Below the pieces are notes generated by a model, which saw nothing but the letters and a program-made list of their open reading frames with translations, searched no databases and was not told where the DNA came from. From Cystobacter fuscus (lineage in GTDB: Bacteria; Myxococcota; Myxococcia; Myxococcales; Myxococcaceae), in assembly GCF_002305875.1 (NCBI RefSeq), contig NZ_CP022098.1:12152001-12216000 (forward strand): 64,000 nt of DNA, in the 5' to 3' direction. The position numbers were made by a program, and so were the translations under genes. Shown here one piece after another: positions 37,989 to 53,756 of the stretch (positions are counted from its first letter, which is position 1; every line of letters starts with the position of its first letter).

Positions 37989-38450
37989 ATGACCACGGTG
38001 ACTCGACTGATGCGCGGCCGCAAACCCACTGGGCCCATCTTGGCGGAGCGCAAGTTCAAGAGTTCTGGTGGCGCTCGTGCCTCCATCCGTGTCCGTGCAC
38101 CGGCCAGGGATTCGCGGACAGGCAACTACAGGTGCTGCGTGGAGTGGGTGCACTCGGGGAAGAGGGAGCTGTTCGAACTCTGGGGAATCGACTCCATGCA
38201 GGCGCTGCAACTCGCTCTCCGAGCCGCCGGGGACCTGGTGAACGGGGACGAAGAGGACCTGCGGTGGGTGGGGAGCGATGACGGCTACCTGGGATTTCCC
38301 AGGACGTACCCGGAGTTTCTTCCCAAGGCGCTCCTACGTAAGCTGGAACGCATGATCGACCGGGAGATCGCCGCCCACGCGCGCAAGAGCGCAGCAGAGC
38401 GCAAGCAGTCGCGGGCTCGAGCGGGACGGAGCAAGCCCATCTCCGGCTGA
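37989..38450 (+). CDS. Small cytoplasmic protein (DUF6968-like), partner of the Cys-rich lipoprotein
   Basis: 153-aa protein without signal peptide, beginning 12 bases after the lipoprotein. It has ILAERKFKSS near the start, a YRCCVEWVHSGKRELFELWGIDSMQALQLALRA block, then an acidic stretch DEEDLRWVGSDDG and a very basic C terminus. The IDSMQALQLAL motif occurs in small DUF6968-type proteins. Role unknown; immunity to the adjacent secreted protein is a possibility by position only. Confidence 0.6.
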   Translation: MTTVTRLMRGRKPTGPILAERKFKSSGGARASIRVRAPARDSRTGNYRCCVEWVHSGKRELFELWGIDSMQALQLALRAAGDLVNGDEEDLRWVGSDDGYLGFPRTYPEFLPKALLRKLERMIDREIAAHARKSAAERKQSRARAGRSKPISG

Positions 38451-42367: not shown

Positions 42368-42837
42368 AGCCGACTCTCCCGGCAGCCCTTCCCGGAGACG
42401 TGTCTGCAGGGGGCGCCTCTCGCCGGCGCATGCCCCCGCACGCCCGCACGCCCGGACGGCCGCGGAAGCGGCGCGGACGGTGCACTCCCGGCGTCCTGCC
42501 GGCGACTCGCGCGCCTCCCGGCGACTCACCCCTCGCCTGCGTTTCGTGGTTTGTTCTTCCTCACCGCTCACCGCTGACGTTCGCGCTGAACCACCTCGCT
42601 TGTTTCCAACTCACGACGTCGCTGCTCGACCTGCGGCGAAGGACGCCCGGCGCGCCCGCGACCGGGTCGAGCAGGCGCGCGAGGGCATCATCGACCGCCT
42701 CGCCGCCGTCCTCGACGACCGCGACCTCGAGGACTTCGAGCGCATCTCCGCCAAGATCCTGGCCGCCTTCGACGAGCCGTGCGACGAGGAGCCCTGATTC
42801 ACGGGGTCACCGGCGGAGGTGAGGCGCGCGGCGCGCG
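42368..42837. other. Mostly non-coding accessory DNA with a possible MarR-like tail
   Basis: About 470 bases. A plus-strand open frame ending at 42797 contains KDARRARDRVEQAREGIIDR and DLEDFERISAKILAAFDEP (about 42640-42797), similar in pattern to the last two helices of MarR-type regulators, with no HTH domain before it. It may be a gene remnant. The rest shows no gene or strong structure. Confidence 0.3.
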
Positions 42838-42954
42838 AGTGGAGTGTCCGCGAAGTTCTTGGACATAGTCGTCCAAGGCCCAGCGCCCGGACTCCTGCGC
42901 CGGGAACAGTACGGGCTCCGCGACTATGTCCAACTATTTGCCGGACACTCCACT
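42838..42954. promoter_or_regulatory. Paired inverted operators TGTCC-N11-GGACA
   Basis: Two 34-base arms (42838-42871 and 42921-42954) form an inverted repeat, each sharing AGTGGAGTGTCCG at the outside and GGACATAGTCG at the inside. Within each arm is a palindrome TGTCC-N11-GGACA (centres about 42855 and 42937, 82 bases apart). The right arm ends 13 bases before the GTG of the MmyB-type regulator at 42967, so autoregulation by that protein is the likely meaning. Confidence 0.65.
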
Positions 42955-42966
42955 AGACTGCGGCCC

Positions 42967-43815
42967 GTGACCGCCGCGTCCCTGTCGTCTCCGCACTCCG
43001 AGCTGGGGCACTTTCTCCGGACCCGCCGGGCGCGGCTGCGGCCGTCCGATGTGGGGCTGACCGAGGGCGCGCGGCGGCGCACGCCGGGGCTGCGGCGCGA
43101 GGAGGTCGCGCAGCTCGCCGACGTGGGGGTGAGCTGGTACACGTGGCTCGAGCAGGGGCGCGACATCCATGTGTCCGAGCCGCTCCTCGAGCGGCTGGCG
43201 CAGGCGCTGCGGCTGACTCCGAGCGAGCGAGCGCACCTGTTTGCGCTCGCCCAGGGGCGGCCGGCGGCGAGCCCGCTGATCGCCCCGGCCGGCGTGAGCG
43301 AGGCGCTGCAGCGGGTGCTCGACGTGCACCCGTTCCCGGCGCTCGTGGCCACGATGCGCTGGGATTACCTCGCCTGGAACACGGCCGCGGTGAGGCTCTA
43401 CGGAGATTTCTCAAAGCTCACGCCCGCGCTCCGCAACGGGCTCTGGAGACTGTTCACCGACCCGAACAGGCGCCGCATGATACCCGCCTGGGAGCAGATC
43501 GCGCGAGCCAGCGTGCAGCGCTTTCGCCTCGACGCGGCGCGCTCGGCCGACCGCTCGGCCTTCGACGAGCTGGCGGCCGCGCTGTCGCGGGTGAGCCCCG
43601 AGTTCACCCGCTGGTGGGGCGACCATGACGTGGTCGAGGTGGGCGAGGGCTCGAAGGAGCTGATCCATTCGGACGTGGGGCTCGTGCGCTTCGAGTACGT
43701 GACGCTCACGCAGGCGGAGCCCGACGGGCGCGTGCTTCGTGTCACGTTCTACTCACCGCAGGCTGGCGAGAGCGAGGAGCGCACGAGGCGACTCTTCGGG
43801 CCGATCACAAGGTGA
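42967..43815 (+). CDS. XRE-family regulator with MmyB-like ligand-binding domain
   Basis: 282-aa transcriptional regulator. The N-terminal HTH contains LGHFLRTRRARLRPSDVGL, RRTPGLRREEVAQLADVGVSWYTWLEQGRDIH, typical of MmyB-type XRE proteins. The C-terminal domain (about 105-275) has ALVATMRWDYLAWN and FEYVTLTQAEPDGRVLRVTFYSP, the PAS-like MmyB ligand domain that binds fatty-acid-like molecules in relatives. GTG start at 42967, directly after an operator pair. The usual neighbour of such regulators is an SDR or reductase; here an SDR tail remains downstream on the opposite strand. Confidence 0.88.
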   Translation: MTAASLSSPHSELGHFLRTRRARLRPSDVGLTEGARRRTPGLRREEVAQLADVGVSWYTWLEQGRDIHVSEPLLERLAQALRLTPSERAHLFALAQGRPAASPLIAPAGVSEALQRVLDVHPFPALVATMRWDYLAWNTAAVRLYGDFSKLTPALRNGLWRLFTDPNRRRMIPAWEQIARASVQRFRLDAARSADRSAFDELAAALSRVSPEFTRWWGDHDVVEVGEGSKELIHSDVGLVRFEYVTLTQAEPDGRVLRVTFYSPQAGESEERTRRLFGPITR

Positions 43816-52694: not shown

Positions 52695-53471
52695 ATGGCG
52701 GGCTCGAGCCGAAGCGAACTCGGCGACTTCCTCCGATCGCGACGAGAACGATTGCACCCCGAGACCGTGGGTCTGCCCGGGGGGCGCAAGCGCCGCACGC
52801 CGGGCTTGAAACGGGAGGAGGTCGCCCAGCTCGCGGGCATCGGCATCGACTGGTACGTCCGGCTGGAACAGGGCCGGACCGTCAGTCCCTCTGTCGCGAC
52901 GATCGATGCGCTGGCCCGCGCATTGCGCCTCGACAAGGCCGAGCACGCCCACTTGAGGGAGCTGGCGCGCAACGCCGACCACCGCGCGTTCTGCCGAGAG
53001 ACCGTCCCCGACGTCATCCACCGCATGCTCCAGGGACTCGAGCATCCCGCCTACGTCACCGGCCGCCGGTGGGACGTCCTGGCGTGGAATGCCGCCGCGG
53101 CCGACCTCTTCATGGACTTCGGCCGGCTGGCCGAGGCGGATCGCAACGTCCTCGTCTACGTGCTGAGCGATCCGGGCGCCCGGCGCATCTTCGGCGCGTC
53201 CTGGGCCGACGAGGCCAGGCGCATGGTGGCCCAATTCCGGGCGACGCATGACCTCTGGGCCGACGATCCCGCGTTCCTCGAGCTGCTGGAGCGTCTGCGG
53301 AGCAAGAGCCCCGAGTTCGCGCTCTGGTGGGAGGCACACGACATCCGCCAGGTCGCGGCCGGCCAGAAGCTGCTGAACCATCCCCAGAAGGGCGCGCTGC
53401 GCTTCGAGTACGCGAGCTTTCAATCCAATGACAATCCCGCGCTGAAGCTGGTCATCTACACGCCGGGGTGA
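52695..53471 (+). CDS. XRE-family regulator with MmyB-like domain (second copy)
   Basis: 258-aa regulator of the same type as the gene at 42967: HTH with LGDFLRSRRERLHPETVGL, RRTPGLKREEVAQLAGIGIDWYVRLEQGRTV and a C-terminal MmyB-like domain (PAYVTGRRWDVLAWNAAAADLF, FEYASFQSNDNPALKLVIYTPG). It lies divergent to a dehydrogenase, a common arrangement. The two MmyB regulators share the family pattern but are not recent duplicates. Confidence 0.9.
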   Translation: MAGSSRSELGDFLRSRRERLHPETVGLPGGRKRRTPGLKREEVAQLAGIGIDWYVRLEQGRTVSPSVATIDALARALRLDKAEHAHLRELARNADHRAFCRETVPDVIHRMLQGLEHPAYVTGRRWDVLAWNAAAADLFMDFGRLAEADRNVLVYVLSDPGARRIFGASWADEARRMVAQFRATHDLWADDPAFLELLERLRSKSPEFALWWEAHDIRQVAAGQKLLNHPQKGALRFEYASFQSNDNPALKLVIYTPG

Positions 53472-53756
53472 GGCGGCTGTGCGCCGCCTCGGCTCTGGAG
53501 TACCCCCTGTGGGGGCCCCAACGTCAACTCCCGGGCAACCCGCACACGCGAGGCTCGTGGAAGACACTGGGTCTCGTGCCTCCCCGTGGATGCGCGCTTC
53601 CTGGACGAACAGGGGAACGGATTTGACCCTACGAGTCAAGACGACTGACAAGTCCTGTAGGGTTCTCCGGTTTTGACGTGCCGCAGCATGGGTCCCGCTG
53701 AGCGAATCCTCACACGGAGCGTGATCCATTTTCACGGTCATCTTACAATTATGGTT
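53472..53756. other. Intergenic region with hairpin and -10-like box
   Basis: 285 bases. ACCCTAC/GTAGGGT (53626-53632 and 53657-53663) can form a 7-bp stem followed by a T-rich stretch, a possible terminator for the regulator. TACAAT at 53744-53749 resembles a -10 box but lies only a few bases before the protease start, so a leaderless transcript is possible. No gene seen. Confidence 0.35.

Follow-up and report, generated by a model that had tools for sequence, protein, structure and literature searches.

The window (the whole 64,000-nucleotide stretch of Cystobacter fuscus DNA analysed here) contains a regulator gene with HTH_31 and MLTR_LBD (PF17765) domains, which bears out the MmyB-type assignment made in a preliminary description of this DNA. 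Two genes for aldo/keto reductases follow farther downstream. Across about the first 300 bases (window 42953–43259), the regulator gene is 90–91% identical to homologues in G003 (L036) and G007 (L097), yet over their full length those two proteins share just 57% and 56% identity with the window regulator; judged from sequence, the ligand domain looks as if it had been swapped by recombination. A second MmyB-type regulator is present at 52695–53474 of the window (G000:C1:12204695-12205474), and its match to the first has one in-frame TGA.

Immediately before the regulator lies a large inverted repeat, each arm of which contains a palindrome. Dyad 1 (42845–42865, TGTCC-GCGAAGTTCTT-GGACA) and dyad 2 (42927–42947, TGTCC-AACTATTTGCC-GGACA) are both exact, and their centres, at 42855 and 42937, are 82 bases apart. 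The arms are complementary at 29 of 34 positions, whereas the best of 60 base-composition shuffles reached 21 (best 34-base arm, 42801–43000); a repeat search gave extended arms at 42825–42871 and 42921–42967 with 77% complementarity. The arrangement described beforehand, two palindromes within a larger inverted repeat at 82-base spacing, is thus real, exceeding all 60 shuffles with both dyads exact. The distance of 13 bases given for the nearer palindrome from the start codon applies to the end of the right arm but not to the dyad itself, which ends 19 bases before the GTG at 42967. As single-stranded DNA, 42837–42955 folds with −35.5 kcal/mol (z −6.55). Further upstream, the open frame at 42480–42797 has no Pfam match at E 0.001, and it may be a gene remnant since the stretch before the element aligns with G007 only over 42574–42839.

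Table 1. Features of the regulator upstream region (window coordinates)
Feature	Position	Strand	Description
Left target copy	42836..42839		CGAG in the window, CTAG in G002
Left terminal inverted repeat with flank	42836..42871	+	CGAG TGGAGTGTCC...GGACATAGTCG; matches IS ends in L033 and L046
Element assigned to IS630-type MITEs	42839..42953		115 bp between TA dinucleotides; site empty in G007 (L097), filled in the window and G002
Element interior	42872..42920		Too short for a transposase; searched with blastn-short
Right terminal inverted repeat with flank	42921..42956	-	Minus-strand reading CTAGTGGAGTGTCCGG...GGACATAGTCG; matches IS ends
Right target copy	42953..42956		CTAG, the TA of which opens the -10-like box
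-10-like box TAGACT	42954..42959	+	TANNNT pattern in homologues; putative promoter
Regulator gene	42967..43815	+	HTH_31 + MLTR_LBD (PF17765), MmyB-like, GTG start

The regulator was followed in 96 genomes, and 24 of them had matches with E of 1e-60 or below (26 rows). The set of homologous loci comprises 24 of these 26 rows from 23 genomes; it includes the window and the paralogue L038 and omits L102 and L103, which are partial protein matches. At 22 of the 24 loci, with L038 and L094 as the exceptions, TANNNT is followed by 7–8 bases and then GTGAC (ATGAC once), counts that are not independent since the loci are related; random 80-base stretches of these loci show the pattern in 39 of 4800 cases. 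The TANNNT box is probably the -10 box of a leaderless promoter. A scan of window 42700–43100 did not find a full sigma-70 consensus, and a sigma-70 promoter in this stretch was dropped as a candidate.

Empty and filled sites in related genomes

The origin of the inverted repeat is revealed by G007 (L097), in which the corresponding site is empty. It reads GGCGCG-CTAG-ACTGCGGCCCGTG, and both of its flanks are homologous to the window: the left is 97.7% identical to window 42574–42839 (266 bases) and the right 89.9% identical to 42953–43259 (307 bases). In G007 the two flank matches share four bases, CTAG, and no other sequence separates them; the net insertion is 117 bases (115 plus TA). G002 (L035), of the same genus as the window genome, carries the same insertion with an intact CTAG on each side, and the element is 97.4% identical between the two. 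The double CTAG in G002 and the single one in G007 are those of a TA insertion with target duplication, although TA and CTAG duplication are indistinguishable at this site, and duplication of all 4 bp of CTAG would make the element 113 bp long. The preliminary description had also considered a small inverted-repeat element recruited as a promoter, and as to origin the empty site shows that it was right.

Among the other homologous loci, an uninterrupted GCTAGACTGCGGCCCGTG is found in G003, G036, and G032 too, but with other sequence upstream. G041 (L082, L122) retains the right end, with three mismatches, before its homologue; the left end was not found within 1.16 kb upstream. The insertion or its right half is therefore present at three of the 24 loci (window, G002, and G041) and absent at the other 21. 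The insertion is not fresh: G002 has it too, the left target copy in the window is altered, and the right half is found in G041.

The element entered the TA inside CTAG and that TA was duplicated; presumably an IS630 transposase moved it in trans. The target TA was the first two bases of the TAGACT box just upstream of the GTG; its duplication rebuilt TAGACT, and the element took the place of all sequence upstream of this putative promoter box. An effect of the insertion on expression of the regulator is plausible though unproven.

Ends shared with IS630-family elements

The 115-bp element is short and without a transposase gene, and its interior matched solely its own place and the same insertion in G002 (blastn-short, among the loci examined). 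With a 151-base stretch as query, a second full copy was not found in this genome, and no common interior marking a multi-copy family was seen among the loci examined. As far as seen, then, this exact element exists in one copy, and that it is mobile is deduced from its ends. These recur: at least eight matches to the end model, including the two in the window, occur in the window genome, against one occurrence of the interior. The 151-base search placed the arm also at G000:C1:2954100 and G000:C1:7285779, and at G000:C1:2954101-2954274 two arms form an inverted pair with CTAG on both sides.

The same ends bound much longer elements. At G000:C1:1914437-1915648 (L033) they lie 1.2 kb apart (45 bases, 87% complementary) and enclose HTH_29 and DDE_3 pieces whose NF033545 scores, 35.3 and 77 bits, are both under the cut-off of 100; the transposase frames there are broken into three pieces. 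A search of 84,980 species genomes with the 34-base end pattern returned six stretches, from Archangium violaceum, Archangium lansinium, Hyalangium versicolor (three), and Corallococcus sicarius. The element delimited by such ends in Archangium violaceum Cb vi76 (L046) is 1207 bp long and has overlapping frames of 104 and 275 codons; the second scores 122.7 bits, above the 100 required for NF033545. Apart from the changed target base, the two L046 ends differ from the left arm of the window at one and two positions, so that the window element shares its terminal inverted repeats with an IS630-family element. A model of 16 ends, run with stricter filters, has matches in at least 30 of the 96 family genomes (E 0.01 per genome), which are presumably myxobacterial, judging from the species named above. 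Among the papers listed for MITEs, IS630, and insertion sequences in myxobacteria, titles and the openings of abstracts contained no description of these elements.

Single short matches are to be read with caution. The 18-base end pattern with two mismatches gave 13 matches in this genome and 12 in a reversed control, so lone weak matches mean little, and the case rests on the long paired ends and the empty site. Within the window, the end pattern with up to three mismatches gave three matches against a shuffle mean of 0.5, and the third, at 38111, is probably due to chance. This genome has other IS630 matches, two of them above the cut-off, with no end-model match at those places among the matches listed. 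An intact source is accordingly not shown in this genome, because the IS with matching ends is broken and the end model is without a match at the other IS630 places.

Complete elements were measured among the loci examined, which include 18 places chosen from the best end-model matches and two other stretches. They number 29 distinct elements (32 rows minus three repeats): a single 92-bp element; seven of 113–117 bp, two of these being the same insertion in the window and in G002; individual elements of 141, 168, 178, 186, and 247 bp; nine of 264–268 bp; and seven of 1203–1207 bp, two of which (L033 and L046) were checked for transposase content. TA is found on both sides in 23 of the 29 and on at least one side in all 29. 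The exact dyad is present in 45 of 74 distinct ends, TGTCC in 61, and GGACA in 53; both these ends and the measured elements were selected for resemblance to a consensus containing CTAG, which makes their conservation partly a product of that selection. Both ends of this genome's IS have TGTAA where TGTCC is expected. Together with the 45 of 74, this makes the dyad a common but not a fixed part of the ends.

Two further observations concern individual relatives. At L067 (G064:C59), inverted 92-bp copies at 1148–1245 and 2294–2391, each bounded by CTAG, flank ~1.05 kb that holds a single open frame of 284 codons; the pair may form a composite transposon out of two MITEs. The IS630 transposase of A. 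violaceum (L046:530-1649) lies in two overlapping frames, and in L033:1497-2182 the first frame change is near a run of C, a frame arrangement that may reflect programmed frameshifting.

On the strength of the empty site and the shared ends, the paired arms are almost certainly the terminal inverted repeats of a 115-bp IS630-family (Tc1/mariner-like) MITE inserted at a TA in the putative promoter region of the regulator.

Regulatory readings and comparison with known systems

The preliminary description had taken the two dyads for operator sites at which the MmyB-like regulator encoded next to them would bind cooperatively and loop the DNA; such an arrangement would serve autoregulation. Their symmetry, their twin arrangement, and their position just upstream of the start codon are what such operators would show. 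The comparison across loci leaves this reading extremely improbable. An exact dyad occurs within 500 bases upstream of three of the 24 homologues, each of which has the insertion or the right half of it; none was found in nine further loci around other PF17765 matches of this genome or in the 3.8-kb locus around the second MmyB-type regulator of the window. The dyad is also carried by transposon ends at unrelated places, and the spacing follows element size, with values of 59–235 bases for the short elements that were measured, so the dyads are not phased. Cooperative looping is left unsupported, since the dyad is part of a transposon end and its spacing varies. A search for the motif upstream of regulator homologues had been proposed beforehand as the sequence half of a test that could refute the operators, and here the reading fails: the dyad is absent at 21 of the 24 loci. 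Paired operators were rejected on this ground.

In the genome as a whole, TGTCC-N11-GGACA has 63 sites, compared with six for a reversed control. Among the sites listed, three resemble the window arms, two of these fit the end model well, and most are unlike transposon ends. A regulon marked by this motif was also rejected; the excess of 63 over six is perhaps a codon-phase effect, the 21 bases of the motif corresponding to seven codons.

A reading that keeps the transposon origin has the MITE co-opted later, its ends binding a cellular protein or a transposase and thereby controlling the regulator. This is compatible with the MITE assignment, and we regard it as unlikely. The whole element has been kept in two genomes and its right half in a third, and it has displaced everything that stood before the -10-like box; Correia elements, moreover, reportedly provide promoters as well as an IHF site (PMC10969869). 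Against these points, no sigma-70 promoter is recognisable around the element (42700–43100), and in G041 the gene persists although the left half was not found. Retention may reflect shared descent only, because both whole-element genomes belong to one genus. A narrower proposal is that IS630 insertion at the TA of the -10 box, by exchanging the upstream control region for two transposon-end dyads that a transposase or a host protein could bind, put the regulator of this lineage under transposon-linked control; we regard it as very unlikely.

With the MITE assignment, a transposon history takes the place of a tempting regulatory story. The insertion is an ordinary kind of event, unusually clean since a relative keeps the untouched site. 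Because the element is of a well-known kind, there is little surprise in it beyond its neat placement at the -10-like box and the clean pair of empty and filled sites. The promoters of this pair, empty in G007 and filled in the window and G002, are matched, the main difference between them being a single insertion at the -10-like box, and would allow direct measurement of how a MITE affects a native promoter. The result also brings into view a group of IS630-type elements, with ends that occur in at least 30 of 96 genomes of one family.

Among known systems, the Correia elements of Neisseria are similar in being short, without a transposase, bounded by inverted repeats, and located directly upstream of a gene, as reported in PMC10969869. 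The window element differs in that no promoter was recognised inside it and in that it is single-copy as far as seen. Another likeness is to ISY100 of the IS630 family, which is reported to insert at TA with duplication of the TA and whose transposase, reported as the only protein needed for transposition, binds and protects the terminal repeats (PMC2170065). By analogy, a transposase would be expected to bind the ends of the window element, each with its dyad. The ISY100 repeats are reported as 24 bases (PMC2170065), whereas ~33–36 bases match here, and the ends of the window element each contain an internal dyad. Unlike an IS630-family insertion sequence, the window element is 115 bp long and without a transposase; it shares with that family, and with ISY100, the insertion at TA with TA duplication and the terminal inverted repeats, and its two checked 1.2-kb relatives carry a transposase of the NF033545/DDE_3 type.
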